Origin: Pedobacter aquae
GTDB lineage: Bacteria; Bacteroidota; Bacteroidia; Sphingobacteriales; Sphingobacteriaceae
Direction of reading: 5' to 3'
DNA: 64,000 nt
NCBI RefSeq assembly: GCF_008195825.1
Contig: NZ_CP043329.1
Span: forward strand, 806,001-870,000
This document shows, in pieces, positions 10,620 to 47,521 of the stretch (positions are counted from its first letter, which is position 1; each line of letters begins with the position of its first letter). The position numbers and the translations under genes are program-made. The notes beneath the pieces were generated by a model. The model saw only the letters and a program-made list of their open reading frames with translations. It searched no databases and was not told the origin of the DNA.

Positions 10620-10632
10620 AATATTAAATAAA

Positions 10633-20743: not shown

Positions 20744-22138
20744 ATGAAGAGAATCATAAACATTGTTTTTTTGATAGCGATAGCATTTACTGCATGTCAA
20801 ACTACTGAAGAGTATCATGGAGTGCAATTGCTTAAAATATCAGAAAACAAGAGGTATTTAATGACAGAGGATGGAGAACCTTTTTTCTGGTTGGGGGATA
20901 CAGGCTGGTTATTATTCAATAAACTAAACAGGGCAGAGGCAGAAACTTATCTTGAAGACCGCAAGCAAAAAGGCTTTAATGTGGTACAAGCTATGGTTTT
21001 ACATACCGTTCCTTCGGTAAATGTATACGGAGACTCTTCTTTAATAAACGCAAATGTTGCTACGCCAGATACCACAAAAGGAAACAACCCGCAAGATTCT
21101 TTGGCTTATGATTATTGGGATCATCTAGATTTTATCATCGATAAAGCTAGCGAAAAAGGTATTTACATGGCTTTAGTGCCTGTTTGGGGTACTAATGTTA
21201 AAGATGGAAAGGTTAGCGTAGCACAAGCAGAACAATACGCTAAATTTTTAGCTAAGCGATACAAAGACCGCAACAATATTATTTGGTTAAACGGTGGCGA
21301 TATCAAAGGCAGTGATTCTTTAGCTGTATGGAAGAAAATAGGTGAAACTTTAAGAGCTCATGACGATAGGCATTTGATAACCTTTCATCCGAGGGGCAGA
21401 ACAGCTTCATCAGACTGGTTTCATAAAGAAAGTTGGTTAGATTTTAATATGGTACAATCTGGCCATAGAAGGTACGACCAAGATACTTCAAAAAAAGAAG
21501 TGAAGCATTACGGCGAAGACAACTGGAAGTTTATGGAAGCCGATTTAAAATTAAGTCCGCTTAAACCAACTATAGATGGAGAACCTTCATACGAGGGCAT
21601 CCCGCAAGGTTTACATGATACTTTAGAACCACGTTGGACAGATGCTGATGTTCGCAGATACGGCTACTGGTCGGTTTTTGCTGGTGCTTTTGGGTATACT
21701 TATGGTCATAACTCGGTGATGCAAATGCATCAAAAGACAGATTCTACAAGCGCTTATGGCTCAAAAGAATTATGGAGCCAAGCTATTCATGCGCCAGGAG
21801 CTAAGCAAATGGTTCATTTGAAAAATCTAATGCTGTCTAAACCTTATTTCAATCGTATTCCAGATCAAAGCTTAATTGCAGAAAACGGTGAAAAATATAA
21901 CCGATTGATAGCCACCAGAGCCGATGATTATGCCATGATTTATACCTATACGGGTAGAAATATGAAAATCAATATGGGTAAAATTAAAGGTGATGAGGTG
22001 AAAGTTTCTTGGTTTAACCCACGCGATGGTAAATACAAAGAAGAAGCTAAAGTAGAAAACAAAGGTGTGAAAGAGTTTAACCCACCAGGTGATGTTAAAG
22101 AAGGGAATGATTGGGTGTTGGTTTTGGAGAGCTTTTAA
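20744..22138 (+). CDS. GH140 apiosidase-like lipoprotein (DUF4038)
   Basis: 464 residues; lipoprotein signal ends AFTACQT (lipidated Cys 18). A single TIM barrel starts with FFWLGDTGWLLFNKL (about 48-60), a hallmark of the DUF4038 group, and ends with a small beta domain. Candidate catalytic residues are Asp186 in WLNGGDIKG and Glu280 in TIDGEPSYEG. Their positions fit the Asp/Glu pair reported for the RG-II apiosidase of Bacteroides thetaiotaomicron as I remember it. GH140 cleaves apiose from galacturonic acid, releasing chains A and B of RG-II. This is the strongest single pointer to RG-II as a target. It begins 7 bp after the upstream gene. Confidence 0.85.
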   Translation: MKRIINIVFLIAIAFTACQTTEEYHGVQLLKISENKRYLMTEDGEPFFWLGDTGWLLFNKLNRAEAETYLEDRKQKGFNVVQAMVLHTVPSVNVYGDSSLINANVATPDTTKGNNPQDSLAYDYWDHLDFIIDKASEKGIYMALVPVWGTNVKDGKVSVAQAEQYAKFLAKRYKDRNNIIWLNGGDIKGSDSLAVWKKIGETLRAHDDRHLITFHPRGRTASSDWFHKESWLDFNMVQSGHRRYDQDTSKKEVKHYGEDNWKFMEADLKLSPLKPTIDGEPSYEGIPQGLHDTLEPRWTDADVRRYGYWSVFAGAFGYTYGHNSVMQMHQKTDSTSAYGSKELWSQAIHAPGAKQMVHLKNLMLSKPYFNRIPDQSLIAENGEKYNRLIATRADDYAMIYTYTGRNMKINMGKIKGDEVKVSWFNPRDGKYKEEAKVENKGVKEFNPPGDVKEGNDWVLVLESF

Positions 22139-23230: not shown

Positions 23231-25075
23231 ATGAAAATCATTCAGACCTGTATAGCCATAGCATTAAGCACCTCTAGTTTGCTAGCCCAGCAAGACACGG
23301 TGAGATATATTGGAAAAACGCTTTCTAATGTAGATTACCACCATGGGCAGTTAAACTTGGCGATAGGTGTACATAATATACAAGTGATGCGAGCAAACAG
23401 AACGCATCCAGAATATAACGCTGGCCATAATTTTACTTACAATCACCAACCCATGTTGGCTTATTGGAACAATACTTTCTTTTTAGAGTATTTGAGTAAC
23501 CCCGTGGGTGAGCATATCGCAGAAGGTAAAACCTTGCTGCAAACATCTAAAGATGGCTACCAATGGTCGGCACCAGCAGTAGTTTTTCCGCCTTACAAAG
23601 TGCCAGATGGCTTTACAAAACCCAATCATCCCGGTAAGGCTAAAGATTTATATGCCATTATGCACCAACGTATGGGTTTTTATGTAAGTGCCAGCAATAG
23701 GTTATTGGTTTTGGGTTATTATGGTGTGGCTTTAGATGCTAAAGACGACCCTAATGATGGTAATGGCATTGGCCGAGTAGTGCGTGAAATTTATAAAGAT
23801 GGCACTTATGGCTCTATCTATTTCATCCGTTTTAATGCTTCTTTCAATACCAAATTGGCTCAATATCCTTTCTATACAAAAAGTAAAGACAAAGGCTTTG
23901 TAGCTGCTTGTAACGAGTTACTTTCTAAACCTTTACTAATGCAGCAATGGTCTGAAGAGGCTGATAGAAACGACCCTTTAGTGCCTTACAAAAGAGCTAT
24001 TAAAGCTTTTAGCTATTATACTTTACCCGATGGCAGAATTGCTGGCTTTTGGAAACATGCTTTAACCAGCATTAGCACCACTGGAGGTAAAAGCTGGCAA
24101 TATGATGCTGTAAGAGCACCAGGTTTTGTAAATAGTAATGCTAAAATATGGGGGCAAAAAACTTCCGATGGTAAATATGCTACGGTTTACAATCCTTCAG
24201 AATACCGTTGGCCTTTGGCTGTTTCTGTGAGTGATGATGGTTTAAATTATCGCAATTTATTATTGGTAAATGGCGAAATATCTCCTATGCGTTACGGAGG
24301 CAATTATAAATCTTACGGCCCGCAGTATGTAAGAGGTATTTTAGAAGGTAACGGCATCCCGGCTGATAAAAATATGTGGGTTGGCTACAGCATGAATAAA
24401 GAAGATATGTGGGTAGCAAAAATTCCTGTTCCGGTTAAAGATAAAGTAGAAACACCTGTAAATGATGTTTTTGCAGATTTAAAAACTGGCGAAGAATTAA
24501 AAGAATGGAATATTTATAGTCCGCTTTGGGCTTCCACAAAAATAGAGCAAGCTCCTAATGGTAAAAAAGCTTTGGCTTTACGCGATAAGGATTTGTACGA
24601 TTACGCTAAAGTAGAAAGAGTCATCCCTTCGGCAGAGCAAGTTTCTATCGAGTTTTCTTTTACGCCGGCTCAGGCTGATAAAGGCTTGTTACACATAGAA
24701 CTATTAGACCAAAAAGGTATTGCCGCAACCCGCATTATTGTTGATGCTGATGGAGAATTGAAATCTAAAGCAGGTTATCGCAACAGTGGGATTGCTAAAT
24801 ACGAAGCCGGTAAAACCTATACTTTAAGATTAGAGGTAAATACCAAAACTCGTTCTTACAAACTGTTTTTAGACGGACAAGAGAAGGGGACAAAACTGTT
24901 TTTTGCTCCGGTAGCAGAAATTAGTAGGGTAGCTTTTAGAACAGGTGAAGTTCGTCGTTTTCCAGATGCGGATACACCAACCGATCAGGATTATGATTTA
25001 AAAAATCCGGGCGAGCCTGTAGCAGAAGTCGTTTATTTTATTCACGCTTTAAAAACATCAGCGCTAAGCAAATAA
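23231..25075 (+). CDS. Secreted beta-propeller protein with C-terminal jelly-roll domain, family unknown
   Basis: 614 residues; signal peptide about 1-19 (SLLAQQ). Residues about 25-415 contain propeller-like repeats with BNR flavour (LLQTSKDGYQWSAP, SISTTGGKSWQYD, VSVSDDGLNYRNL). Residues about 425-610 look like a concanavalin-like jelly roll (VSIEFSFTPAQADKGLLHIEL, YTLRLEVNTKTRSYKLFLDG). This combination is found among exo-acting glycosidases and some rhamnose-glucuronate lyases; I cannot choose. It starts 1 bp after the GH43 stop and ends 2 bp before the next GH2, so it is tightly coupled to side-chain degradation. Confidence 0.6.
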   Translation: MKIIQTCIAIALSTSSLLAQQDTVRYIGKTLSNVDYHHGQLNLAIGVHNIQVMRANRTHPEYNAGHNFTYNHQPMLAYWNNTFFLEYLSNPVGEHIAEGKTLLQTSKDGYQWSAPAVVFPPYKVPDGFTKPNHPGKAKDLYAIMHQRMGFYVSASNRLLVLGYYGVALDAKDDPNDGNGIGRVVREIYKDGTYGSIYFIRFNASFNTKLAQYPFYTKSKDKGFVAACNELLSKPLLMQQWSEEADRNDPLVPYKRAIKAFSYYTLPDGRIAGFWKHALTSISTTGGKSWQYDAVRAPGFVNSNAKIWGQKTSDGKYATVYNPSEYRWPLAVSVSDDGLNYRNLLLVNGEISPMRYGGNYKSYGPQYVRGILEGNGIPADKNMWVGYSMNKEDMWVAKIPVPVKDKVETPVNDVFADLKTGEELKEWNIYSPLWASTKIEQAPNGKKALALRDKDLYDYAKVERVIPSAEQVSIEFSFTPAQADKGLLHIELLDQKGIAATRIIVDADGELKSKAGYRNSGIAKYEAGKTYTLRLEVNTKTRSYKLFLDGQEKGTKLFFAPVAEISRVAFRTGEVRRFPDADTPTDQDYDLKNPGEPVAEVVYFIHALKTSALSK

Positions 25076-30608: not shown

Positions 30609-31247
30609 ATGAAAAGTCTTCAATACATCATGCTGTTATGGCTGGCACTACCCATTTTGGTAAATGCCCAAACAGAGCAAGAGCAAAAAGCTGCCGAATG
30701 GGTAAGCAGCTTAAATTTAAATGATGCTGCCAAAGAAAGTCGTGTAAAAGCGGTTATCGCAAAGCATTTAACAGCAGTTAGAGATTGGCATAATAGCCAC
30801 CCGGCAAGCACAGTTCCGGCTGGTATAAACCCTATTACGGGAGAGAAATTAAGCGATTTGCATCGTGAAATTATTGCTGACTCTGCCATGCCAGATAGCG
30901 TACACAAAAACTTAATGACAGGTTTAAGAGCCGATTTATCTCCAGAACAAGTAATTGCCATTTTAGATAAATACACCATCGGTAAGGTAGCATTTACCAT
31001 GCAAGGTTATAAAGCCATTGTACCTAACATGACAGCTACTGAAGAAGCTTTTATCCAAAAGAATTTAGAAGAAGCCCGCGAAATGGCTGTTGATTATAAA
31101 AGCATGAAACAGATATCGGCCATTTTTGAGATTTACAAAAACAAGTGCGAGCAGTATTTAAACAACAATGGCAGAAACTGGCGACAAATGTATAAAGACT
31201 ATGTAAATGCCCAAAAGGCAAAGAAACAAGCAGAAGCAAAAAAGTAA
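30609..31247 (+). CDS. DUF3826 family secreted protein, second copy
   Basis: 212 residues; signal peptide about 1-20 (ILVNAQTEQ). It shares with the protein at 6440-7123 the pattern KVAFTMQGYKAIVPNMT, EEAFIQKNLEEAREMAVD and a Lys/Ala-rich tail. No catalytic motif is apparent. Its place between a rhamnosidase and a sialidase-like hydrolase, with 1- and 4-bp gaps, suggests a role in handling the same glycan. Confidence 0.8.
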   Translation: MKSLQYIMLLWLALPILVNAQTEQEQKAAEWVSSLNLNDAAKESRVKAVIAKHLTAVRDWHNSHPASTVPAGINPITGEKLSDLHREIIADSAMPDSVHKNLMTGLRADLSPEQVIAILDKYTIGKVAFTMQGYKAIVPNMTATEEAFIQKNLEEAREMAVDYKSMKQISAIFEIYKNKCEQYLNNNGRNWRQMYKDYVNAQKAKKQAEAKK

Positions 31248-31251
31248 AACC

Positions 31252-32391
31252 ATGTTAAAAAGACATATCATTTCCCTATTCATATGCTTTGGAGTTTCAT
31301 CGTTGGCAACAGCGCAAGAAGCCAAATGGCGTAAAGGCATTTTAGTAGATGAATTTATTTACGATAAAGCGCCTTTTCCATCCTGTCACTCGGCTACTTT
31401 AGCAGAAACTCCTGAAGGCTTGGTTTATGCTTTTTTTGGTGGTACCAGAGAACGCCACCCTGATGTTGAAATATATGTAAGCAGACAGGTAAATGGTAAA
31501 TGGACAGCTCCGGTATCGGCAGCAGATGGTGTACAGCCCGATGGGAAAAGATTACCAACATGGAACCCCGTATTGTACCAAGTTCCAGGTGGCGATTTAT
31601 TACTATTTTATAAAGTTGGGCCTAAACCATCAGAATGGTGGGGGATGTTAAAAACATCAAAAGACAATGGTAAAACATGGTCAGCAGCACAAAAACTGCC
31701 TGATACTTATATCGGCCCTGTAAAAAATAAACCTGTTTTATTAAGCAATGGTAATTTGTTTTCTGCAAGCAGCACAGAAGGTAAGGGTTGGAAAGTTCAT
31801 TTTGAAGTAAGTTCTGATTTTGGTAAAACTTGGAGAAAAATTGGTCCGCTAGATGCCGGAAAAGATAGCTTAAATGTAATACAGCCAAGTATTTTAGACC
31901 ATGGCAATGGTAAACTTCAAATTTTAGCCAGAACAAGAAATAGGGCTTTAGCAGAAGCATGGTCTTACGATTATGGCGAAACCTGGACAGCACTTTCTAA
32001 AACCAATTTGCCAAACAATAACTCTGGTACTGATGCTGTAACGCTAAAAAATGGTAAACATGTTTTGGTTTATAACCATGTTTTACCTCCCGGAGATTTA
32101 GCAAAAGGCCCAAGAACACCTTTAAACGTAGCGGTTTCTAAAGATGGTAAAAATTGGAAAGCGGCACTTATTTTAGAAGATTCGCCTATCAGCCAGTATT
32201 CTTATCCGGCAGTTATCCAAACCAAAGACGGGCTTTTACATTTTGCCTACACCTGGCGAAGAGAGAAAATGAAGCATGTAGTGGTAGACCCATCAAAACT
32301 AAAATTAAAGAAAATAAAAAACAGACAGTGGCCTGCTTTAAAAGGCTATGAAGCACCTGTTTTAAAAGAAACTAAATCAGAAGAAGAATAA
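31252..32391 (+). CDS. BNR-repeat (sialidase-superfamily) hydrolase, candidate Dha/Kdo glycosidase
   Basis: 379 residues from the ATG at 31252, which begins the signal peptide (MLKRHIISLFICFGVSSLAT). An upstream ATG overlaps the previous gene and adds a charged tail. Asp-box repeats of a six-bladed propeller are clear: TSKDNGKTW, SSDFGKTW, SYDYGETW and SKDGKNW. Early arginine-containing motifs (FFGGTRERHPDVE) resemble the sialidase superfamily. There is no sialic acid pathway (no N-acetylmannosamine enzymes) beside it. Instead the next genes fit degradation of another 3-deoxy-ulosonic acid. RG-II contains Kdo and Dha, and Dha is the better match to the downstream enzymes. Substrate is an inference. 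Confidence 0.7.
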   Translation: MLKRHIISLFICFGVSSLATAQEAKWRKGILVDEFIYDKAPFPSCHSATLAETPEGLVYAFFGGTRERHPDVEIYVSRQVNGKWTAPVSAADGVQPDGKRLPTWNPVLYQVPGGDLLLFYKVGPKPSEWWGMLKTSKDNGKTWSAAQKLPDTYIGPVKNKPVLLSNGNLFSASSTEGKGWKVHFEVSSDFGKTWRKIGPLDAGKDSLNVIQPSILDHGNGKLQILARTRNRALAEAWSYDYGETWTALSKTNLPNNNSGTDAVTLKNGKHVLVYNHVLPPGDLAKGPRTPLNVAVSKDGKNWKAALILEDSPISQYSYPAVIQTKDGLLHFAYTWRREKMKHVVVDPSKLKLKKIKNRQWPALKGYEAPVLKETKSEEE

Positions 32392-32407
32392 AATCCAACA
32401 TCATAAA

Positions 32408-33550
32408 ATGCAGTTATTAAACGTACATTTCCCGGGTAAATTGGTTTTCGGAAATGGTTCATTACAGCAGTTAACCAATGAAATTTTACAGCTTTCCTGT
32501 AAAAGAGTGTTGCTGTTAACTATTGAGCCGCTGTTAGCTACTTTAACAGATTTGAAAACCCAATTAGAACAAGCTGGGGTAGCATTAAGGATTGATACCA
32601 GTATTATCCAAGAACCTACTTTTCAGGATTTTAGGAGCTTACTGGCGGAGAGTAAAGATTTTAATGCTGATTTAGTGTTAGGAATTGGTGGTGGTAGCGT
32701 TTTAGATATCGCCAAATTAATAGCTGCACAACTAGACAATACTCAAACTTTAGAAGAAATTGTAGGGATAGGTTTCCTTAAAGGCAGAAATATTAAATTG
32801 ATATGCGTACCTGCAACATCTGGTACCGGAAGCGAGGTTTCTCCAAACGCTATTTTGGTTGATGATGAAGGCCAAAAGAAAGGTATTATCAGTCCGTATT
32901 TAGTGCCAGATATGGTTTATGTAGACCCATTATTAACCATCAGCGTACCAGCAAGTATTACTGCCGCAACTGGTTTAGATGCTTTAACCCATTGTTTAGA
33001 AGCCTTTACCAATAAGTTTGCTCAGCCATTTATAGATATGTATGCCTTTGAAGGTATGCGCTTGATAGCTGCCCATTTGGTAGATGCTGTACAAGACGGA
33101 ACAAATAAAACAGCTAGAGAACAAGTTGCCATGGGAAGTTTGTTAGGCGGCTTTTGTTTAGGCCCAGTAAATACAGCAGGTGTACATGCACTTTCTTATC
33201 CTTTAGGAAGCATGTTCCATTTGCCACATGGACTTTCAAATGCGCTTTTATTGCCTTATGTGATGGAGTATAACTATCCCGCAGACTTAAAAAAGTATGC
33301 ACAGGTAGCACAAGCCTTAGGTTGCGAAAATCAAGACAATGATGAAAAAATGGCTCTAGCCGGAATTGCCAAAATCAAATCGCTGATAGCGGCTTGTGGT
33401 ATTCCTGCTAAACTTAGTGATTTAAATATACCCAAAGATAAAATAGCCGAAATGGCAAAAGACGCAATGCAAATACAAAGATTATTAAAAAACAATCCGA
33501 GAGAGATAACTCTTGAGGATGCCATATCTATTTATACAGCAGCTTATTAA
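32408..33550 (+). CDS. Iron-containing alcohol dehydrogenase; candidate C4-uronate reductase
   Basis: 380 residues, the family length, cytoplasmic (no signal). Rossmann-type NAD(P) domain with LVLGIGGGSVLDIAK (about 90-105) and VPATSGTGSEVSP (about 138-150). The metal-binding helical domain has GLDALTHCLEAF, GVHALSYPLG and FHLPHGLSNALLLP, giving the Asp and three His ligands. The family reversibly reduces aldehydes. Between a sialidase-like hydrolase and an aldolase, it could reduce the aldehyde acid made by the aldolase (threuronate to D-threonate if the sugar is Dha). Alternative: lactaldehyde reduction from rhamnose or fucose breakdown. Confidence 0.85.
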   Translation: MQLLNVHFPGKLVFGNGSLQQLTNEILQLSCKRVLLLTIEPLLATLTDLKTQLEQAGVALRIDTSIIQEPTFQDFRSLLAESKDFNADLVLGIGGGSVLDIAKLIAAQLDNTQTLEEIVGIGFLKGRNIKLICVPATSGTGSEVSPNAILVDDEGQKKGIISPYLVPDMVYVDPLLTISVPASITAATGLDALTHCLEAFTNKFAQPFIDMYAFEGMRLIAAHLVDAVQDGTNKTAREQVAMGSLLGGFCLGPVNTAGVHALSYPLGSMFHLPHGLSNALLLPYVMEYNYPADLKKYAQVAQALGCENQDNDEKMALAGIAKIKSLIAACGIPAKLSDLNIPKDKIAEMAKDAMQIQRLLKNNPREITLEDAISIYTAAY

Positions 33551-33553
33551 TAC

Positions 33554-34495
33554 ATGAAGACAGAAAAGAAATTTCAAGGAACCATTGTTCCGGTTGTGGC
33601 GCCACTAACGCATGATTATAAGCTGGATAAGGAGGCTGTAGAAAGAATTTTTTCTCACCTATATAAAAGCAATGCTTCTCCTTTTATATTGGGTACAACC
33701 GGAGAATCTGCTTCTTTACCGCAATCCTATAAAGAAGATTACATAAAAGCAGTTGCAAAAATAAGATCTACAGATGTGAAACTCTATGCAGGTATTTCTT
33801 CAAATATTTTAGAAGAATCTATAGCGTTTGCAAAGCTATGTTTTAATGAAGGTGTTGATGCTGTAGCAGCAACTTTGCCAACCTATTATCATCTGTCAGA
33901 AGATCAAATGAAACGCTATTTTTTAGAGCTAGCAGATGAAATCCCAGGACCTTTAATCATCTATAACATCCCGGCAACTACACACATGTCTATTCCGCTT
34001 TCGCTGATGGATGAATTAAGTTTACACCCTAATATTGTAGGTGCTAAAGATTCTGAACGTAGCGAGAAAAGATTAGATGAGTCTTTAAACCTTTGGAAAC
34101 ACCGACCAGATTTTAGCTATTTCTTAGGTTGGGCGGCAAAATCTGCCCATGCACTTATCAACGGTGCCGATGGTTTGGTGCCTAGTACCGGAAACATCAT
34201 ACCATCTATTTATGCAGAAATGTGTAAAGCAGTTTTAAAAGGCGATGAAGGTTTAGCTTTCCATTATCAATCACAGTCTGATAAATTAGGTCATTTATAC
34301 CAGCATGACCGCTCTTTGGGCGAGTCTTTATGGGCTTTAAAAGTGTTGATGAACGAGCTAGGTTTATGCGAAAGCCATATGATGCCGCCGCTTTGCAGCT
34401 TATCCTTAAAAGAGGAAAACGAATTAAGAAAAGGTTTCCACGAGTTAATTAAAAAAGAAAAAATTACCCTGAATTTATTAAGCCATGCCTCATAA
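33554..34495 (+). CDS. DHDPS/NAL-superfamily pyruvate aldolase
   Basis: 313 residues. Schiff-base lysine Lys165 in NIVGAKDSE, the YNIP tyrosine Tyr137, and GTTGES at 47-52 (binding the pyruvate carboxylate) mark it as a class I aldolase of the dihydrodipicolinate synthase/N-acetylneuraminate lyase group. It is a peripheral catabolic copy, not the lysine enzyme, judging from neighbours. It is expected to split a 2-keto-3-deoxy acid into pyruvate and an aldehyde. With Dha this gives a four-carbon aldehyde-acid, which the next genes could consume. KDG or Kdo are alternatives. Its last 11 bp overlap the start of pdxA. Confidence 0.88.
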   Translation: MKTEKKFQGTIVPVVAPLTHDYKLDKEAVERIFSHLYKSNASPFILGTTGESASLPQSYKEDYIKAVAKIRSTDVKLYAGISSNILEESIAFAKLCFNEGVDAVAATLPTYYHLSEDQMKRYFLELADEIPGPLIIYNIPATTHMSIPLSLMDELSLHPNIVGAKDSERSEKRLDESLNLWKHRPDFSYFLGWAAKSAHALINGADGLVPSTGNIIPSIYAEMCKAVLKGDEGLAFHYQSQSDKLGHLYQHDRSLGESLWALKVLMNELGLCESHMMPPLCSLSLKEENELRKGFHELIKKEKITLNLLSHAS

Positions 34496-35534
34496 ACCAA
34501 TCATCGGAATTACCATGGGCGACCCGGCCAGCATTGGGCCAGAAATTGCCGTAAAAGCACTTCTTGATTTTAAAATCTATGATTATTGCCGTCCTTTATT
34601 AGTTGGTGATGCTGCCGTTTTTAAGCACATCATTAAAAAGTTAGGTTTAATGGCACAAATTAATCCTATACAAAACATAGCCGATGCCCGTTTTGAAATG
34701 GGTAAACTAGATGTTTTTGATCTTCAAAATGTAGATTTAGAAAAGCTAGAATTTGGTGCTATATCTGCTATGGCGGGTGAAGCATCTTTCCAAGCGGTTA
34801 AAAAAGTAATAGAATTGGCTTTAGCCGGAGATATTGATGCAACCGTAACCGGACCTATCAATAAAAAATCTATCAATGAAGCTGGTCATCATTATGCTGG
34901 CCATACAGAAATTTATGCCGATTTAACCCATACAAAAAAATACGCCATGCTTTTGGTAGAAGATAACATGAAAGTTATCCATGTTTCTACCCATGTTTCT
35001 TTAAGACAAGCTTGTGATTTGGTTAAAAAAGAAAGAATTATAGAAGTTGTTGAGCTTTTACATCATGGCTTAATCTCTTTGGGCGAGAAGAATTTAAAAA
35101 TCGGGATAGCGGGTTTAAATCCACATGCTGGAGATTCTGGTCTTTTTGGTACAGAGGATGATGAAGAGATTTTACCAGCCGTACAACAAGCTTTAGCTTT
35201 AGGTTATGATGTTGAAGGGCCTGTACCGGCAGATACCTTATTTTCTAAAGCTGCAACAGGTTATTATGGAGGTATCGTAGCGATGTATCACGATCAAGGG
35301 CATATTCCGTTTAAGCTTTCTGGTTTTAAATGGAACCCGCTTAAAAAGCAAATGGATAGCGTTAAAGGTGTAAACATCACGATGGGTTTACCTATCATCA
35401 GAACATCTGTAGACCATGGTACAGCTTTTGAAATTGCTGGAAAAGGCATTGCCAGTTCTGATGCCATGACTTTAGCTATAAACTCTGCTGTACAATTAGC
35501 AGCATACAGAAAAGCAGAAATCCAACAAGATTAG
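34485..35534 (+). CDS. pdxA2: PdxA2-type 4-phospho-threonate/erythronate dehydrogenase
   Basis: 349 residues with all PdxA family motifs: GDPASIGPEIAVKAL (about 12), TGPINKKS, HYAGHTEIYA, GLNPHAGDSGLFG, GPVPADT, AMYHDQGHIPFK (metal-binding His) and TSVDHGTAFEIAGKG. PdxA2 paralogues paired with a DUF1537 kinase are known to oxidise 4-phospho-D-threonate (or erythronate) at C3, with loss of CO2, to DHAP. That pairing, 4 bp apart, is what is seen here. Vitamin B6 synthesis (true PdxA) is unlikely because pdxJ and other B6 genes are absent nearby. Confidence 0.88.
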   Translation: MPHKPIIGITMGDPASIGPEIAVKALLDFKIYDYCRPLLVGDAAVFKHIIKKLGLMAQINPIQNIADARFEMGKLDVFDLQNVDLEKLEFGAISAMAGEASFQAVKKVIELALAGDIDATVTGPINKKSINEAGHHYAGHTEIYADLTHTKKYAMLLVEDNMKVIHVSTHVSLRQACDLVKKERIIEVVELLHHGLISLGEKNLKIGIAGLNPHAGDSGLFGTEDDEEILPAVQQALALGYDVEGPVPADTLFSKAATGYYGGIVAMYHDQGHIPFKLSGFKWNPLKKQMDSVKGVNITMGLPIIRTSVDHGTAFEIAGKGIASSDAMTLAINSAVQLAAYRKAEIQQD

Positions 35535-35538
35535 CTTC

Positions 35539-36693
35539 ATGATGATAGCCGTTATTGCAGATGATTTAACAGGAGCAGCAGAAATTGGAGGCATTGCTTT
35601 AAGATACAACCTCACGGTAGAAGTGGTGTCTGCTTTGCAATATGCCAAAAAAGCTGATGTAATTGTGGTTAACGCCAATACTCGTTCTTTAACAGAAGAA
35701 CAGGCTAGGGCTGTTATTAAAAGCATTTTTACTGATTTGCAAAAGCTAAATCCACAGTTGGTATTTAAAAAGATAGATTCTGTTTTACGTGGTCATGTCC
35801 TGCCAGAAATAGAAGAGCAAATGCTAGCAACAGGTCAGCAAAAAGCTTTAATATTGGCTGCTAGTCCGGCTTTAGGCCGAGCAATCAAAAATGGTCATTA
35901 TTATATAGAAGGTAAACCTATTCATGAAACAGGCTTTGCTCAAGATCCAGAATATCCTGCAAAAAGTTCTTCTGTAAAAGACCTTTTACGTGTCACATCA
36001 TCAGTTTTTCCGGTGCATGTTCAACATCACGAAAGTACTTTGCCAGCAATTGGAGTAACTGTAGGAGAGCTAGAGACTTTTGATGATTTTAACCACTGGC
36101 TAAAACATGCCAACCATGATGTAGCCTTGGCCGGTTCGTCAGCATTTTTTAATGCGCTTTTGGCACAACGCTACACCAACTTATCGGCAAACCGTAAAGA
36201 ACGCTTGATGCTTAAAAGCCCCATCATTTACGTTTGCGGAAGTAAGTTTGATAAAAGTATACAATTAGTAAAGCAAGCGCAGCAGCAAGAAGTGGTAAGT
36301 TATATGCCTGCTGCATTGGCTCACGAAGTTAAAAATCAAGCTATTTTATTAAAGCAATGGCAGCAAGAAATCATCCAGATATTACAATCAAAATCTAAAG
36401 TGATAATTGCTGTAAATACTTTAGAACAAGCGCAAGAAGCCAAACCTGAGAATATCAAAAACCTGATGGCAAGCGTTTTAGAAATGGTATTGCAAGAGGT
36501 AAAGGTTAAAGAATTTATTATAGAAGGTGGTGCTACGGCATCGGCTATATTAGAAAAACTTAAAATAAACCGTTTGCTCATGGTGCAAGAAATTGCCCAA
36601 GGTTTAACCAGAAGTATTGCAAAAGATCAAAAAATAAATATTACTTTAAAGCCTGGTAGTTATACCTGGACAAAAAATATATGGAAGTTCTAA
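35539..36693 (+). CDS. DUF1537 four-carbon acid sugar kinase
   Basis: 384 residues; a start one codon later is possible (MMIAVIADD). The N-terminal substrate domain has IADDLTGAAEIGG (about 5-17), VNANTRSL and FKKIDSVLRGHV (about 75-87), followed by ASPALGRAIKNGHYYIEGKP and ETGFAQDPEYP. The C-terminal ATP domain ends with IIEGGATASAI. This family phosphorylates D-threonate, D-erythronate or 3-oxo-tetronates. Next to PdxA2 the substrate is expected to be D-threonate or D-erythronate. Transcribed with the aldolase and pdxA2. Confidence 0.87.
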   Translation: MMIAVIADDLTGAAEIGGIALRYNLTVEVVSALQYAKKADVIVVNANTRSLTEEQARAVIKSIFTDLQKLNPQLVFKKIDSVLRGHVLPEIEEQMLATGQQKALILAASPALGRAIKNGHYYIEGKPIHETGFAQDPEYPAKSSSVKDLLRVTSSVFPVHVQHHESTLPAIGVTVGELETFDDFNHWLKHANHDVALAGSSAFFNALLAQRYTNLSANRKERLMLKSPIIYVCGSKFDKSIQLVKQAQQQEVVSYMPAALAHEVKNQAILLKQWQQEIIQILQSKSKVIIAVNTLEQAQEAKPENIKNLMASVLEMVLQEVKVKEFIIEGGATASAILEKLKINRLLMVQEIAQGLTRSIAKDQKINITLKPGSYTWTKNIWKF

Positions 36694-36720
36694 ACTTCTT
36701 ATAGCAACTAACCAATAAAA

Positions 36721-38304
36721 ATGACTAAACCCGTTCTAGGAATAATTGATTACTGTATCATTATTGCCGTTTTACTAATTACCCTCTATTTTGGTTTGCG
36801 CTATGCCAGAAACCAAAAAACTACCGAGGCTTATTTTTCTGCCAAGGGTAGGGTGCCATCTTGGGCTATAGGGATGTCTTTATTAGCAACCTTAATCAGT
36901 AGCGTTACCTTTTTAGGTTATCCCGGCGAAGGTTTTTCTAATAACTGGATATTGCTTGTGCAAGGTTTAATGGTTCCAATTGTTTTGCTGGGCACTATTT
37001 GGTTTATTGTGCCGCTGTACAGAAAAGTAATTGGCCTAAGTACTTACGAGTATTTCGAAAAACGTTTTGGCTCTTTTGCCCGTTATTACAGCTCTATAGC
37101 TTTTGTTTTAAGGCAGTTTTCTGGTATGGGAACCGTGTTTTACCTCTTAGCCGTGGCACTTTCTAGCATGACAGGTTTTAATACTTTTTGGGTAATCATG
37201 GTAGTTGGTTTAATCATCATCATCGTAAACCTATTAGGCGGTATAGAAGCTGTTATTTGGTTAGATGTTTTCCAAGGTTTTATGCTTTTTGCCAGTGGTA
37301 TATTGGTTTTATTGGTGATTATCTTCTCTGTAAACGGTGGTTTAACTACCATTTGGGAGGTGGCATCGGCCAACGGAAGAACAGGTTTTGGCCCTTATGA
37401 TGTGGATTTTACCCGACTTACCTTTATCGTTATGGCTATAAACGGGATGTTTTATGCCATTCAAAAATATGGTACAGACCAAACTGTTATTCAAAGATAT
37501 TTAACCGCTCGTTCAGATAAATCGGCAATAAAAGCTTCTTTATTAGGTATTTTACTAACCGTACCTGTTTGGTCTTTATTCATGTTTATTGGTACTGCTT
37601 TGTTTGTTTATTATCAACAGCAAAGCCTTCCGGCAGATGTAAATGCCAATAGCGTATTCCCATATTTTATCATGACAGAGCTACCTAGCGGCGTAGTAGG
37701 TTTTATTTTAGCCGCCATGATTTCTGCTGCTATTTGTAGCTTAAGTGCCGATTTAAACTCTCTAGCAGCCGTAGGTATTGAAGATTATTATAAGAAAATG
37801 CGTCCGGGTAAAATAGATAACGAATACTTATTAGCCAGCCGTTGGATGGTAGCTATATCTGGTTTTATAGCCATCGGGATAGGCGCTATCTATATTAATG
37901 TAGGTGGCGAGGGTGTTTTAGGCATCATCTTTACCTTATATGCAATTTTCTCTGGCGGTATTGTGGGTATATTTTTACTAGGCGTTTTTTCTGCCCGGGC
38001 AAATAGGCAAGGGGTAAATATTGCTATTTTAGTTTGTATCCTTTTCACTTCCTACGCTTTTTTAACCTCCACCAAAATTGGCTTAGGAGAGGAGAAATTC
38101 TTATTGCTAGATATGGGCCCTTATAATTTCACTCATGATAAATTAATGTTAGGCGTTTACAGTCACCTTATCGTGATAGGTGTAGGCTATATAGCAAGCT
38201 TATTTTTTCCTAAACCAATACTAGACCGTAATTTGCTTTACAGCGGATGGGTTGCTGGCAGGAGAGAAGAGAGAGCGCAAAATCTGGCAAATAAAAATCA
38301 ATAG
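36721..38304 (+). CDS. Sodium/solute symporter (SSS family)
   Basis: 527 residues with about 13-14 hydrophobic segments and SSS landmarks: TEAYFSAKGRVPSWAIGMS near 38, LISSVTFLGYPGEGF near 60, ISAAICSLSADLNSLA near 345. It brings a small solute across the inner membrane with Na+. SSS relatives transport sialic acids, sugars and sugar acids. In this operon the cargo is likely the monosaccharide released by the BNR-repeat hydrolase (Dha or Kdo). It follows the kinase by 27 bp. Confidence 0.88.
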   Translation: MTKPVLGIIDYCIIIAVLLITLYFGLRYARNQKTTEAYFSAKGRVPSWAIGMSLLATLISSVTFLGYPGEGFSNNWILLVQGLMVPIVLLGTIWFIVPLYRKVIGLSTYEYFEKRFGSFARYYSSIAFVLRQFSGMGTVFYLLAVALSSMTGFNTFWVIMVVGLIIIIVNLLGGIEAVIWLDVFQGFMLFASGILVLLVIIFSVNGGLTTIWEVASANGRTGFGPYDVDFTRLTFIVMAINGMFYAIQKYGTDQTVIQRYLTARSDKSAIKASLLGILLTVPVWSLFMFIGTALFVYYQQQSLPADVNANSVFPYFIMTELPSGVVGFILAAMISAAICSLSADLNSLAAVGIEDYYKKMRPGKIDNEYLLASRWMVAISGFIAIGIGAIYINVGGEGVLGIIFTLYAIFSGGIVGIFLLGVFSARANRQGVNIAILVCILFTSYAFLTSTKIGLGEEKFLLLDMGPYNFTHDKLMLGVYSHLIVIGVGYIASLFFPKPILDRNLLYSGWVAGRREERAQNLANKNQ

Positions 38305-38312
38305 GTTTCATC

Positions 38313-39689
38313 ATGAAAAAGATTCTTTTAATACTTCTTGTAGCTGCTTGTCACCTGCTTTATGCGCAACAAGATAGCGACAATCAATACAAAAGGCCCT
38401 TAAAAGAGGTGATTTCAGAAATAGAAAAACGCTTTGAGGTTAAAATAAAATACAGCGAAAACCAAGTTGCAGACAAATGGCTAAGCTATGCCGATTGGCG
38501 CTTTAGACCTAGTTTAGAAGAAACTTTGGATAATGTTTTTAAACCGCTTGACTTAAAACTCAATAAAGAAAAAGACAGAGTTTATAAGCTTAAAGAGTAC
38601 GAGTATTACCGTTGGGAAGTGCAAGACGGTTGGGATAATTTAGACAGATTAGCTGCTTTATATAGCGATAAAACGTCTTGGGAAGCCCGTAGAGATTCTA
38701 TTCGCCCACAACTTTATAAAGCACTAAAACTATCTCCTTTACCAGCATTGCCTAAAAGTAAACCTATCCTTACACCAAAAAGAGTGATGGACGGTTATAC
38801 GGTAGAAAACATCGCTATAGAAATTATGCCGGGCTTATATATAAATGGTTCTATTTATAAGCCGTTGAAAATGAAGGGTAAAGTACCAGTTATTTTAAGT
38901 CCTGATGGGCATTGGTTTGATCATCGTTTTAGAGCCGATTGCCAAATCCGTTGCGCAATGACGGCTAAAATGGGTGCTATAGCTGTAAGCTATGATTTAT
39001 TTGGCTGGGGCGAATCTGGCTTGCAATTTAAGTATGAAGATCATCGCAAAAGCCTAGCTCAAACCGTACAAACTTTAGGCGCTATCCGTTTGCTTGATTA
39101 CCTCTTAACCTTAAAAGAAGCCGATAAAACCCGTGTTGGCATTTGCGGAGGTTCTGGTGGCGGCAGTCAAACTGTATTAATGGCCGCCATGGATCCAAGA
39201 ATAAATTTAAGTATCCCGGTGGTGTCTTTATCATCTTATTTTTATGGAGGTTGCCCTTGCGAAAGTGGTATGCCGGTACACCTTTGTGGCGGAGGAACTA
39301 ATAATGTAGAGTTAGCAGCTATCACAGCGCCAAACCCGCAACTGGTTATTTCTGATGGTGGAGATTGGACAGCCCATTTTCCTCAGCATGATTATCCTTA
39401 CCTCAAAAAAATGTATGCTTATTATGGTAAAGCGTCACAAATACAAAATGTTCATTTACCAGAAGATAAACACGATTTTGGTTTCTCTAAACGTAAAGCC
39501 GTTTATGATTTTTTAATTGCTCAGTTTAAGCTGGATGCTAAAGCCGTTCAGGATAAAAATGGTAATTATGACGAGTCTACCTGCACCATAGAGAAGAAAG
39601 AAGCCTTGTATGTATTTGGTGATAAAGGCGAAAAACTTCCTAAAAATGCCATCATGGGTTATGAGCAGTTAGAAAAGCTTTTTAAATAA
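38313..39689 (+). CDS. Secreted alpha/beta-hydrolase esterase with N-terminal STN-like domain
   Basis: 458 residues; signal peptide about 1-18 (HLLYAQQ). Residues about 28-90 (RPLKEVISEIEKRFEVKIKY, then SLEETLDNVFKPLDLKL) resemble the STN domain normally found on TonB-linked receptors and secretins. Residues about 150-430 form an alpha/beta hydrolase with ICGGSGGGSQTVL (nucleophile Ser in GGSGGG) and a late His in DKHDFGFSKRK. An alpha/beta-hydrolase pectin methylesterase (BT1017) is known from a Bacteroides RG-II locus and is the best functional model. It would remove methyl or acetyl esters before glycosidases act. Confidence 0.75.
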   Translation: MKKILLILLVAACHLLYAQQDSDNQYKRPLKEVISEIEKRFEVKIKYSENQVADKWLSYADWRFRPSLEETLDNVFKPLDLKLNKEKDRVYKLKEYEYYRWEVQDGWDNLDRLAALYSDKTSWEARRDSIRPQLYKALKLSPLPALPKSKPILTPKRVMDGYTVENIAIEIMPGLYINGSIYKPLKMKGKVPVILSPDGHWFDHRFRADCQIRCAMTAKMGAIAVSYDLFGWGESGLQFKYEDHRKSLAQTVQTLGAIRLLDYLLTLKEADKTRVGICGGSGGGSQTVLMAAMDPRINLSIPVVSLSSYFYGGCPCESGMPVHLCGGGTNNVELAAITAPNPQLVISDGGDWTAHFPQHDYPYLKKMYAYYGKASQIQNVHLPEDKHDFGFSKRKAVYDFLIAQFKLDAKAVQDKNGNYDESTCTIEKKEALYVFGDKGEKLPKNAIMGYEQLEKLFK

Positions 39690-39704
39690 TCATTCCAATC
39701 AAAT

Positions 39705-40595
39705 ATGTCTAATCGCCGTGATTTTATTTGTCAGCTGGGTGTTTTGGCTGCTGCTGCCTGTATGCCTCAAAGGCTTTTGGCTTTCGCCGATGTACCAAAA
39801 CAGCGTTATAAAATAGCGGTCATAGATTTGATGATTCTAAAACGCCAGAAAATTTCTGCTTTCCAACTCGCCAAAGATATTGGCGCTGATGGTTTAGAGC
39901 TAGATATGGGAGGTCTTGGCAACCGCGAAACTTTTGATAATAAACTTGCCGATGAAGCCACAAGAGCAGCTTTTTTAGCGAAAGCTAAGGCATTGCAATT
40001 AGAAATTTGCTCGCTCGCCATGACAGGTTTTTACGCACAATCTTTCGCTACCCGGCCAACCTATCAAAAAATGCTTCAAGATTGTATAGATACCATGCAA
40101 GCCATGCAGGTGAAAGTAGCTTTTCTACCATTGGGCGTACAAGGAGATTTGGTTAAAAACCCCGAGCTAAGACCAGCTATTGTAGAACGTTTAAAAGTGG
40201 CAGGTGCTATGGCTAAAAAGGCTGGTATTATCATCGGTATAGAAACATCTTTAAGTGCCACAGAAGAGAAAAAGCTTTTAAAAGAAATTGGTTCTAAGCA
40301 TATTCAAATCTATTTCAACTTTTCTAATCCGCTAAAAGCAGGTAGAGATTTGATAACAGAATTAAAAATCTTAGGTAAGAAACGCATCTGCCAAATCCAT
40401 TGTACCGATGAAGATGGCGTTTGGCTACAAGATAATCCGCGTTTAAATATGTATAAAGTAAAAGAAACCTTAAATGCTATGGGCTGGCAAGGTTGGTTAG
40501 TGATAGAACGCTCCCGCGATGCCCGTTTCCCAACTAAAGTACTCGATAATTTCTCAGCCAATACCGCTTTTATGAAAAAGGTTTTTCAGTTATAA
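39705..40595 (+). CDS. Exported sugar isomerase/epimerase-like TIM barrel (Tat signal)
   Basis: 296 residues. The start MSNRRDFICQLGVLAAAAC is a twin-arginine-type signal. The rest is an AP-endonuclease-2/xylose-isomerase-like barrel (GADGLELDMGG near 60, IIIGIETSLSA near 177, ICQIHCTDEDG near 228, WLVIERSRDA near 263) with Glu, His, Asp and Glu residues placed to bind a metal. Such exported barrels are common in Bacteroidota sugar loci; their reaction is usually unknown. Last gene of the long operon. Confidence 0.78.
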   Translation: MSNRRDFICQLGVLAAAACMPQRLLAFADVPKQRYKIAVIDLMILKRQKISAFQLAKDIGADGLELDMGGLGNRETFDNKLADEATRAAFLAKAKALQLEICSLAMTGFYAQSFATRPTYQKMLQDCIDTMQAMQVKVAFLPLGVQGDLVKNPELRPAIVERLKVAGAMAKKAGIIIGIETSLSATEEKKLLKEIGSKHIQIYFNFSNPLKAGRDLITELKILGKKRICQIHCTDEDGVWLQDNPRLNMYKVKETLNAMGWQGWLVIERSRDARFPTKVLDNFSANTAFMKKVFQL

Positions 40596-45000: not shown

Positions 45001-45491
45001 AATATCAAAACCTAAAAAATATTTCTACTGCATGGAAGGTTAAGTTTAACCAAAGCCACGGTGGCCCTGCAGAAAGCATCATGTTAGATAGCTTACAAGA
45101 TTGGAGTACCCACAGCAATCCGCAAATTAAATACTATTCTGGTACAGCTACTTACAACAATAGCTTTATACATAAAGTATCAAAAAACGAAGAAATATGG
45201 CTCGATTTAGGCGAAGTAGCCAACATTGCCAGTGTAAAAGTAAATGGTATAGATTGCGGTATTGTTTGGACACCTCCGTACCGAGTAAACATCAGCAAGG
45301 CTTTAAAGAAAGGCCAAAATCAATTAGAAATTAAGGTAAGCAATACTTGGGTAAATCGTTTAATTGGCGACCAACTACTGCCAGAAGATAAAAGAATTAC
45401 CAAAACAACAGCCCCTTTTAGGCTAGAAGGCAAAGCCTTAAATAAAGCAGGCTTATTGGGCACTGTTTCTTTATTAAAAGTTATAGAATGA
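42066..45491 (+). CDS. GH106 alpha-L-rhamnosidase, secreted
   Basis: 1141 residues; signal peptide about 1-26 (LQAQTL). The family's opening motif is present (KPWVFWYWMHASFSKEGIT, then NEAGIAGAYI). The barrel is interrupted by a sugar-binding insertion (about 210-320), and later blocks FHVDSWECGSQNW and AETTAPVMLGDGLKHFG carry likely catalytic Glu residues. A C-terminal jelly-roll resembles a GH2 sugar-binding domain (IWLDLGEVANIASVKVNGID). GH106 enzymes remove alpha-L-rhamnose; characterised ones act on RG-I and RG-II. Its stop overlaps the GH127 start (ATGA). Confidence 0.9.
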   Translation: MKFKAYHACFIAFLLCFSSFMPLQAQTLAPHIQKINHEAKPWVFWYWMHASFSKEGITADLKAMNEAGIAGAYIAPIKGKTNPPLYEPVIETLTPAWWDIFKFALEEAKRFDIKIALLPNDGFATAGGPWITPQLSMQKVVYSAATVKGGSLFNTTLKQPEAYQNYYQDIAVLAFPTPGGKTQSTQEIKPLVTTSNGQDASFLAETGHKKNFGSNEPCWIQYAFEKPFVCRSIKISVNNFNHQSNRLWVEVSDDGKNFRSLGRLQAPRTGWLDWDAPVTHEIETVSAKYFRFVYNPEGTEPGAEDLDAAKWKQSLKINGIELSSLPKIHQFEGKSGLVWRVGEHTKTIPDDLAIPISSIINLSDKLDTEGNLKWTAPKTHTEWTIIRIGHTSTGHKNETAGAGKGLEVDKFNPEAVKLQFDKWYGEALRVAGADLAKQVLGVFHVDSWECGSQNWSPVFMAEFQKRRGYDPTSFLPTLAGFPIASPAKAEQFLYDMRKTIAELMHDNFFVTLKNLAQQHGAIFTAETTAPVMLGDGLKHFGTVDVPMGEFWAKSPSHDKPNDMLDAISGAHIYGKNIIQAEAFTTVRMEWNEHPGNLKTLQDRNYALGVNKLVYHVYVHNPWLDRKPGMTLDGVGLYFQRDQTWWEQGKEWVAYAERCQSLLQQGKPVADLAVFVGEEYPSRAILPDRLVNTLPGIFGDERVAAEAQRMANKALPTQKVAGVTTSANMAQPERWINPLRGYAYDSFNADVLQLASFKNGKVVFASGAEYRILVLPLKHQLNPNQYYTETSLAKILELVNAGALCIIGDKPQFKTGLKADEKLFNHVVEAIWGGTFENIKVAGSYYEFKNSGKGKFIKAPFLPKDFSFLGAHQDVLVKDAQGKEAPVIAWNHRKTATKDIYFISNQLDTERNLSFAFSVSDKQARLYDAVSDTNIPLKQYQVKDGYTHISIKLPANGSLFVIFEGSSSLKEINKGFNYIQYQNLKNISTAWKVKFNQSHGGPAESIMLDSLQDWSTHSNPQIKYYSGTATYNNSFIHKVSKNEEIWLDLGEVANIASVKVNGIDCGIVWTPPYRVNISKALKKGQNQLEIKVSNTWVNRLIGDQLLPEDKRITKTTAPFRLEGKALNKAGLLGTVSLLKVIE

Positions 45492-47521
45492 TGAATAAGA
45501 AAATTTATATCAGCTTGTTAGCGAGCTTTTTAATGCTCAATAACAGTTACGCACAAAACAAAGCCATGGTAAATACAGCTGCTAGTCCTTACGCTAAGCT
45601 AAAAAGCGTTGATATGGGCGCTGTAAATTGGACAAATGGTTTCTGGGCAGAACGTTTTCAGGTATGTAAAGAAAGCATGGTGCCGCAATTATGGAAAGTT
45701 TATACCAGTGCAGACATTAGCCATGCTTACAGAAATTTTGAAATTGCTGCTGGTTTAGAGAAAGGAAACCATAAAGGTCCGTCTTTTCATGATGGCGATT
45801 TTTATAAAACCTTAGAGGCAGTAGCTAGCTTATATGCTTCTACCAAAGATGAGCAATTAAATAAAATGATGGATGAGGCTATCGCTACAATAGCTAAATC
45901 TCAAAGAGAAGATGGCTATATCTATACCAAAGCCATGATAGAAGAGCGAAATACGGGTGTTCGAAATCAGTTTCAAGACCGTTTAAGTTTCGAGGCTTAT
46001 AATATTGGCCATTTAATGACAGCCGCTTGCATCCATTACCGGGCTACTGGAAAGCGTTCTTTGTTAAATGTAGCAGTAAAGGCCACAGATTATCTGTACA
46101 ATTTTTATCAAAAAGCATCGCCAACTTTAGCAAGAAACGCTATTTGCCCATCGCATTATATGGGTGTGATAGAAATGTATCGTACCCTGGGTGATAAAAG
46201 ATATTTAGAGCTAGCTAAACACCTGATAGATATTAAAGGAAAGATAGACGATGGTACTGATGATAACCAAGATAGAATTCCGTTTAGAGAGCAAAAAAAG
46301 GTGATGGGTCATGCTGTTAGGGCTAATTATTTATATGCTGGCGTTGCCGATGTTTATGCCGAAACAGGCGATACTACCTTAATGAGCCAATTAGATAAAA
46401 TGTGGCATGATGTCACGCAGCATAAAATGTATATCACCGGAGGTTGCGGTTCTTTATACGATGGTGTATCGCCAGACGGAACTTCTTACAACCCTACCGA
46501 AGTACAAAAAATACATCAGGCTTATGGTCGAGATTACCAATTACCCAATTTTACAGCACATAATGAAACTTGCGCCAATATTGGTAATGTTTTATGGAAT
46601 TACCGTATGCTACAGCTTAGCGGAGAGGCTAAATATGCCGATGTGATAGAATTAGCTTTGTATAACAGTGTATTATCAGGCATTAGTTTAGATGGTAAAC
46701 GTTTTTTATATACCAATCCATTAAGCTATAGCGATGCTTTGCCTTTTAAACAGCGTTGGTCTAAAGATAGGGTAGAGTATATTTCATTATCTAATTGTTG
46801 TCCGCCTAATACCGTACGTACTCTAGCAGAAGTAAGTAATTACGCCTATAGCGTGTCTGATAAGGGTGTCTGGATAAATCTGTATGGCGCCAACGAGTTA
46901 AAAACTACTTTAAAAGATGGTTCTTCTTTATTAGTTAGCCAAGAAACAGCTTACCCATGGAATGGCGATATTAAATTAACCGTTAAAGAGAGTAGCAAAA
47001 ACCCATTCTCTTTCTTTTTAAGAATACCAGGGTGGGCTTCAAAAGCTAGTATCCTAGTAAATGGTAAAGCACTTGAAACGCCTGCTAAACCTGGCACATA
47101 TGCCGAAATTAATAGAAATTGGAAAAAAGGAGATGTTATAAGTTTAACTATCCCTATGGAAGCCGAGCTGATAGCAGCCAACCCATTGGTAGAAGAAAAT
47201 AGAAACCAAGTAGCCGTAAAACGTGGCCCTGTGGTGTATTGTGCCGAGTCTGTAGATATGCCACAAGGTACCAGCGTTTTTTCTTTAACTATACCAGCAA
47301 GCGCCCAGTTTAAAGCCGTTCCTTTACAATTTGCAGATAGTAAAATGATGGCTTTAGAAGCCGATGTAAAAATGGTAAAAGCACAAAACTGGACAAACCA
47401 ACTCTACCAAAAAGTAAATACCCAAACAGGGCAAGTAAAAGTAAAATTGATTCCTTATTATGCATGGGGCAATAGAGGTCATGTAGCAGAAATGTCTGTA
47501 TGGTTACCTTTTAGTAGATAA
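45488..47521 (+). CDS. GH127 beta-L-arabinofuranosidase or acericidase, secreted
   Basis: 677 residues; signal peptide about 1-22 (NSYAQNK). (alpha/alpha)6 barrel. Glu360 and Cys362 in AHNETCANIGN and Cys437-Cys438 in LSNCCPPNT match in kind and spacing the Zn-binding Glu/Cys set of GH127, in which a cysteine is the nucleophile. A beta-sandwich follows (about 500-670). GH127 members act on beta-L-arabinofuranosides; one in an RG-II locus is described as acting on aceric acid. Being coupled to GH106 by a 4-bp overlap, it probably cuts the sugar exposed after rhamnose removal. Confidence 0.9.
   Translation: MMNKKIYISLLASFLMLNNSYAQNKAMVNTAASPYAKLKSVDMGAVNWTNGFWAERFQVCKESMVPQLWKVYTSADISHAYRNFEIAAGLEKGNHKGPSFHDGDFYKTLEAVASLYASTKDEQLNKMMDEAIATIAKSQREDGYIYTKAMIEERNTGVRNQFQDRLSFEAYNIGHLMTAACIHYRATGKRSLLNVAVKATDYLYNFYQKASPTLARNAICPSHYMGVIEMYRTLGDKRYLELAKHLIDIKGKIDDGTDDNQDRIPFREQKKVMGHAVRANYLYAGVADVYAETGDTTLMSQLDKMWHDVTQHKMYITGGCGSLYDGVSPDGTSYNPTEVQKIHQAYGRDYQLPNFTAHNETCANIGNVLWNYRMLQLSGEAKYADVIELALYNSVLSGISLDGKRFLYTNPLSYSDALPFKQRWSKDRVEYISLSNCCPPNTVRTLAEVSNYAYSVSDKGVWINLYGANELKTTLKDGSSLLVSQETAYPWNGDIKLTVKESSKNPFSFFLRIPGWASKASILVNGKALETPAKPGTYAEINRNWKKGDVISLTIPMEAELIAANPLVEENRNQVAVKRGPVVYCAESVDMPQGTSVFSLTIPASAQFKAVPLQFADSKMMALEADVKMVKAQNWTNQLYQKVNTQTGQVKVKLIPYYAWGNRGHVAEMSVWLPFSR

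Follow-up and report, generated by a model that had tools for sequence, protein, structure and literature searches.

What becomes of a rare acid sugar of rhamnogalacturonan II (RG-II) once it has been cut from the pectin is the question raised by a locus of Pedobacter aquae, contained in a window of 64,000 nucleotides (contig NZ_CP043329.1, positions 806,001 to 870,000), in which six consecutive genes at 31252-38304 encode a BNR-repeat hydrolase, an iron-dependent alcohol dehydrogenase (Fe-ADH), a DHDPS-family aldolase, a PdxA2-type dehydrogenase, a DUF1537 kinase and a sodium/solute symporter (SSF). No pectin is more complex than RG-II. The enzymes responsible for its cleavage are known, but the open literature searched seems to contain no account of what follows the release of its two rarest acid sugars. 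An earlier note on this DNA had assigned all six genes to a pathway for the acid sugar Dha (3-deoxy-D-lyxo-2-heptulosaric acid). The current analysis retains five of them on the grounds of stereochemistry, paralog affinities and the nesting of aldolase genomes among those with GH143, and releases the BNR hydrolase from the set: the symporter, aldolase, Fe-ADH, kinase and PdxA2-type protein most probably form a module that imports Dha and degrades it to pyruvate, dihydroxyacetone phosphate (DHAP) and CO2. The note knew of no published description of such a pathway, and no Dha catabolic pathway was found in the open full-text literature, subscription papers lying outside the search.

All six open reading frames lie on the + strand at the positions previously given: the BNR_2 hydrolase (31252-32391; Pfam BNR_2, 4e-88), which is exported and sialidase-like; the Fe-ADH (32408-33550; Pfam Fe-ADH/ADH_Fe_C); the class I aldolase (33554-34495; Pfam DHDPS, 5e-46); the PdxA2-type dehydrogenase (34485-35534; Pfam PdxA); the DUF1537 four-carbon acid-sugar kinase (35539-36693; SBD_N and NBD_C domains); and the SSF Na+/solute symporter (36721-38304; TIGR00813 sss). 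The intergenic distances, from the BNR gene to the symporter gene, are 16, 3, -11, 4 and 27 bp, each below the 30 bp that had been claimed. The longest reading frame of the BNR gene opens at 31207, and the methionine at 31252 precedes a signal-peptide-like start.

We infer each reaction, and the substrate of transport, as follows. A GH143-type protein of 614 aa encoded at 23231-25075 (+ strand) would free Dha once an arabinofuranosidase has taken off the terminal arabinose, and the SSF symporter, a predicted inner-membrane Dha importer, would carry the sugar into the cell. The aldolase, through a Schiff base on Lys165, is predicted to cut Dha between C3 and C4, yielding pyruvate and a C4 aldehyde-acid (2,3-dihydroxy-4-oxobutanoate), which the Fe-ADH, presumably working in the reductive direction, would convert to D-threonate. 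The DUF1537 protein, a predicted D-threonate 4-kinase, would then form D-threonate 4-phosphate, and its oxidation and decarboxylation by the PdxA2-type protein would give DHAP and CO2, so that the net conversion (Dha + ATP to pyruvate + DHAP + CO2) would be redox-neutral. Fischer bookkeeping agrees with the stereochemical correspondence on which the earlier proposal was built: Dha is D-lyxo at C4-C6, and after C3-C4 cleavage and reduction of the aldehyde its C5 and C6 centres, renumbered from the carboxylate, become C2 and C3 of a D-threo acid with the hydroxyl to the left at C2 and to the right at C3, which is D-threonate.

The aldolase has the features of the DHDPS/NAL class I aldolase superfamily (a TIM barrel, a Schiff-base lysine, a tyrosine and the GxTGE motif). 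Lys165, already singled out in the earlier reading, is invariant in 51 aligned orthologs, as are Tyr137, GTTGE (47-51) and Thr142, the last of these occupying, with the YN(V/I)P motif as guide, the position of DHDPS Arg138. The protein falls outside DapA on both counts examined, scoring 137 bits against the TIGR00674 cut-off of 206 bits and having this threonine where DapA has Arg at E. coli position 138. The closest fold in the PDB to its AlphaFold2 (AF2) model (pLDDT 95) is YagE, a 2-keto-3-deoxy-galactonate aldolase (Z 39.2), with many superfamily members nearly as high. Compared with NanA and YagE (DHDPS/NAL aldolases of sialic acid and 2-keto-3-deoxy sugars), the fold, the Schiff-base lysine, the tyrosine and the pyruvate-binding GTTGE motif are common to the window protein, but its ortholog group differs in K-D-S-E at the catalytic lysine, an invariant R184, threonine at the DHDPS Arg138 position and a predicted second substrate carboxylate. 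R169 was considered as an arginine for the distal carboxylate; it is Arg in 40 of the 51 orthologs and Asn in a Prevotella-type group, so that no proof that the substrate is a diacid is drawn from it.

The kinase and the PdxA copy both lean, by model scores, towards the enzymes of D-threonate. The former is a DUF1537 protein (SBD_N and NBD_C at 126 and 47 bits, over the cut-offs; AF2 model with Z 39.2 to 3dqq and 5dmh), and its best DUF1537 model in NCBIfam is the D-threonate kinase NF047819 (136.5 bits, versus 76 bits for oxo-tetronate kinase). For the latter, the D-threonate-4-phosphate dehydrogenase model NF002891 gives 319 bits, versus 210 for the housekeeping PdxA, and PRK03743 gives 385 versus 263; the top three PDB matches of the window copy include PdxA2 (2hi1) and D-threonate 4-phosphate dehydrogenase (6e85). 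As the housekeeping PdxA is encoded separately at 3.36 Mb of the same genome, the window copy is a second, PdxA2-type paralog, for which conversion of 4-phospho-D-threonate to DHAP and CO2 is the predicted reaction. For the Fe-ADH the best NCBIfam models, on none of which it reaches the cut-off, are lactaldehyde reductase, ErcA and sulfoacetaldehyde reductase, and the symporter scores 213 bits on TIGR00813 sss (cut-off 184) and is kept alongside the aldolase in most loci. Catabolism of D-threonate by the DUF1537 kinase DtnK together with PdxA2 was reportedly described by Zhang et al. in PNAS in 2016, a study cited by both PMC10971088 and PMC9997740. Among DUF1537 kinases, DtnK has been characterised for D-threonate and DenK for D-erythronate (PMC10971088), and PdxA2 is the PdxA paralog of organic-acid catabolism (PMC9997740). 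The DtnK/PdxA2 system shares with the window the two families, their gene adjacency and the predicted route from D-threonate to DHAP and CO2; in the window, however, D-threonate is predicted to be an intracellular intermediate made from a C7 diacid by aldol cleavage and reduction, rather than an imported sugar, and both proteins score below the NCBIfam equivalog cut-offs.

By its gene content the window is an RG-II polysaccharide utilisation locus (PUL), combining SusC/SusD with RG-II-specific enzymes (DUF6298, GH140, GH43-like, BT1020-like, GH2, GH78, GH106, GH127 and BT1017-like esterase). The protein at 23231-25075 consists of a Beta-prop_BT_1020 domain (Pfam, E 1.1e-121) and a sialidase-like carbohydrate-binding module, and its alignment to residues 24-612 of the BT1020 structure 5MQR (E 3.5e-238) places it in GH143. 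The aligned part is reportedly the GH143 (Dha hydrolase) half of BT1020, the other half being GH142 (Ndeh et al. 2017; CAZy); this homology predicts that a Dha-releasing enzyme is already present in the PUL. Side chain C of RG-II carries rhamnose on Kdo (3-deoxy-D-manno-octulosonic acid), and side chain D arabinose on Dha (PMC12282258). The GH127-type beta-L-arabinofuranosidase at 45488-47521 (+ strand; Pfam GH127 catalytic, 4e-110) would uncap Dha in the latter.

The tie between the module and GH143 extends across genomes, as illustrated by samples of 400 genomes of the order and 395 of the phylum, and by 50 aldolase-bearing genomes from a species-wide scan, mostly Bacteroidota with some other phyla. 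Within the order, where the aldolase was called at an identity of at least 46% (one 27% match being excluded), 70 of the 400 genomes have the aldolase and 144 have a strong match to the BT_1020 propeller (GH143); the aldolase genomes are nested completely within the latter (70/70; Fisher p 7e-38, not corrected for the relatedness of the genomes). Of the 22 genera, about 10 have GH143, and the 9 with the aldolase are among these. The two genes lie within 15 kb of each other in 33 of the 70 genomes and within 50 kb in 56, and are unlinked within 50 kb in the other 14. Among the 50 aldolase genomes from several phyla, GH143 is found in 43, compared with 22/395 over the cut-off in the phylum sample; the outcome that the earlier note had named as fatal, a gene set occurring mainly in genomes that lack RG-II enzymes, was thus not seen. 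Furthermore, all four partners (Fe-ADH, PdxA, DUF1537 and SSF) accompany the aldolase at 60 of 80 loci in other genomes, and at least three at 70, so that the clustering is not a matter of chance; in Prevotella-type loci the gene order is changed and the gene content is the same. Three metagenome-assembled genomes (MAGs, in which absences are soft; genomes and loci are denoted by our G and L numbers), G803, G804 and G811, have GH143 and the aldolase with no apiosidase match detected, which points to Dha rather than to RG-II in general. One of them, G811, has all five genes of the module, some 7 kb away from GH143, with neither a BNR ortholog nor the second aldolase discussed below (ALD2) detected, and has sulfatases at this locus.

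Several observations weigh against assigning the module to Dha. The genomes sampled are related, so the Fisher p value overstates their independence; seven of the 50 aldolase genomes have no GH143 match, some of these being incomplete MAGs; and 74 GH143 genomes of the order, many of them in the genus denoted g3, are without the module, so that GH143 can evidently do without it. In a few relatives (L131, L135) no Fe-ADH, PdxA2 or kinase gene lies near the aldolase, and the equivalog cut-offs of the kinase model (DtnK, NF047819, 450 bits) and the dehydrogenase model (NF002891, 583 bits) are well above the scores given here.

Genomes of genus g3 (e.g. G138 and G080) combine GH143, BNR and ALD2 without the Dha module. 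Such genomes may set Dha free and leave it unused, or have another route for it; one 20 kb stretch of G138 contained no other candidate Dha gene. At L131 (8116-12495) and L135, transketolase genes are found near the aldolase, the L131 transketolase being split, and this could perhaps represent another fate of the C4 product.

An unlikely alternative is that the module serves some other acid sugar (e.g. free threonate or erythronate, aceric acid or an algal ulosonate) and only travels with RG-II PULs, as the seven aldolase genomes that lack GH143 might indicate, together with sulfatase-flanked loci in Melioribacter-type genomes that suggest non-RG-II polysaccharides. Neither tetronates nor aceric acid would need a pyruvate aldolase, however, and the recurrence of GH143 in aldolase genomes of the order and of several phyla speaks against a passenger. 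Moreover, Dha is a main component of prasinophyte-type scales (PMC1413533), so that loci outside RG-II also fit Dha and an algal source of the sugar is plausible, including for the G811 locus. The aldolase loci L053, L060, L131, L129 and L134 are flanked by sulfatases and/or by a different BNR-like family (GWPANNG-type motif), and possibly correspond to non-RG-II sources of Dha.

Quite improbable, too, is degradation of Kdo by the module, with the BNR hydrolase freeing Kdo, the aldolase producing pyruvate and D-arabinose, and the other enzymes handling acids derived from D-arabinose. Kdo is also a 3-deoxy-2-ulosonate, the BNR gene lies directly upstream and probably encodes a chain C enzyme, and G801 and G814 have the module and an apiosidase homolog with no PF24067 match. 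Yet a four-carbon acid kinase and PdxA2 are not needed for D-arabinose, as had been argued from the outset, and the BNR hydrolase itself proves to be separable from the module, contrary to its earlier inclusion: orthologs are present in RG-II genomes whether or not these have the module (those that lack it including G080, G138, G222, G025 and G286), none is within range at 37 of the 60 full-module loci, and G811 and G804 have GH143 and the module aldolase with no BNR ortholog detected. In eight loci (L079, L103, L105, L109, L113, L122, L140 and L147) BNR_2 is fused to a GH78 rhamnosidase, which suggests that the two act one after the other. Given rhamnose on Kdo in side chain C, this fusion points to Kdo, in the same way that the joining of GH143 to GH142 in BT1020 is a pointer to Dha. 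With GH143 already present in the PUL, the BNR protein was therefore rejected as the most likely Dha hydrolase, and is more likely, judging from these gene associations, a Kdo hydrolase of side chain C.

Least probable by far is that the DUF1537 and PdxA2 proteins act on 4-hydroxy-L-threonine in vitamin B6 salvage or detoxification, unrelated to the aldolase: some members of both families can do so (cited in PMC10971088 and PMC9997740), but this genome has a housekeeping PdxA, and the two are encoded between aldolase and symporter within an RG-II PUL, with these neighbours recurring across phyla.

A candidate for Kdo use is found in a second set of genes, whose presence in RG-II loci also argues against Kdo as the substrate of the five-gene module. 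In L101, L103 and L105 the genes next after BNR encode a different symporter (SSF2) and another aldolase of the DHDPS family (ALD2; 7861-8838 in L101), with the Dha module coming after these; in L171-L173 and L071 a protein that weakly matches L-fucose isomerase is found with SSF2-ALD2. L-fucose isomerases accept D-arabinose as well, which is what aldol cleavage of Kdo should give. ALD2 is found in 22 of the 48 genomes tested, and in 0/10 of those without GH143, while two genomes of genus g3, G080 and G138, carry both ALD2 and BNR and lack the Dha module. The genome of the window carries the triplet of SSF2, ALD2 and L-fucose-isomerase-like protein at G000:C1 ~1467900-1472100 (L164:5880-10064), with ALD2 at 1.469 Mb, and thus displaced to a site away from the RG-II PUL; at the syntenic position of the window, where relatives have the triplet, only an AraC-like regulator and a DUF3826-like gene are left. 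An adjoining GH95 gene makes L-fucose or L-galactose an alternative source of substrate for the triplet, and the assignment to Kdo is for this reason only a lead. Tentatively, and at somewhat less than even odds, RG-II loci may contain two parallel ulosonate pathways that had not been described before. In this reading the Dha module would serve GH143, and a Kdo module (SSF2, ALD2 and the L-fucose/D-arabinose-isomerase-like protein) would serve a Kdo-releasing BNR hydrolase, which is at times fused to the rhamnosidase that acts ahead of it, with the Dha module also present in bacteria without RG-II enzymes, where it maybe acts on Dha of green-alga scales.

The predicted pathway would link Dha, a rare pectin sugar, to glycolysis in a concrete and assayable way, and proposes functions for genes with generic annotations, in Bacteroidota of soil and gut as well as in other groups. 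Use of Dha and of Kdo would be separable by gene content, and the module would mark the genomes of Dha consumers, among them possibly organisms that degrade algal scales.

DUF1537 alone was rejected as such a marker. Near several RG-II PULs of the phylum sample it is of the OiaK type, beside an OiaX-like RuBisCO homolog, and the aldolase was therefore taken as the marker instead. A DUF1537 kinase in an RG-II PUL is thus common to the window and to PULs with the OiaK/OiaX apiose route, but the OiaK kinase is of the long type and is a different gene from the window kinase. L047 (8203-11678), L048, L050, L052 and L046 contain the OiaK-type kinase, the OiaX-like homolog and an Asp/Glu-racemase-like gene in RG-II PULs with no Dha module nearby, and this set is a probable apiose/apionate route. 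For an apiose operon beside the module in L058, where the kinase scores as GlpK, no claim is made.

Elsewhere in the window are the SusC/SusD pair (7407-12501), the GH140 apiosidase (20744-22138, + strand; Pfam Apiosidase, 1.8e-119) and, beside it, a DUF6298 protein of 1050 aa (17584-20736) that is kept in many of the RG-II PULs examined. Compared with the RG-II system of Bacteroides thetaiotaomicron (BT1020 with GH142/GH143, BT1017 and GH140), the window has close homologs of the first half of BT1020 and of BT1017, as well as GH140, and differs in having, besides these, a predicted module for breakdown of the acid sugar after its release and in encoding DUF3826 and esterase, and GH143 and arabinosidase, as separate genes. 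The six genes belong to a longer co-directional run (30609-40595: DUF3826, BNR, Fe-ADH, aldolase, PdxA, DUF1537, SSF, BT1017-like esterase and TIM-barrel protein), with the DUF3826 gene 4 bp upstream, the BT1017-like pectin methylesterase gene (38313-39689, + strand; 6goc match, E 2e-130) 8 bp downstream and the TIM-barrel gene 15 bp further; a terminator-like hairpin at 40867 lies past its end. The 6goc chain also contains a DUF3826 domain, and DUF3826 and esterase form a single protein in L070, whereas in the window the six-gene set lies between them. The esterase is fused to a xylose-isomerase-like TIM barrel in L101, L103, L105, L137 and L141, and these are two genes in the window (38313-40595).

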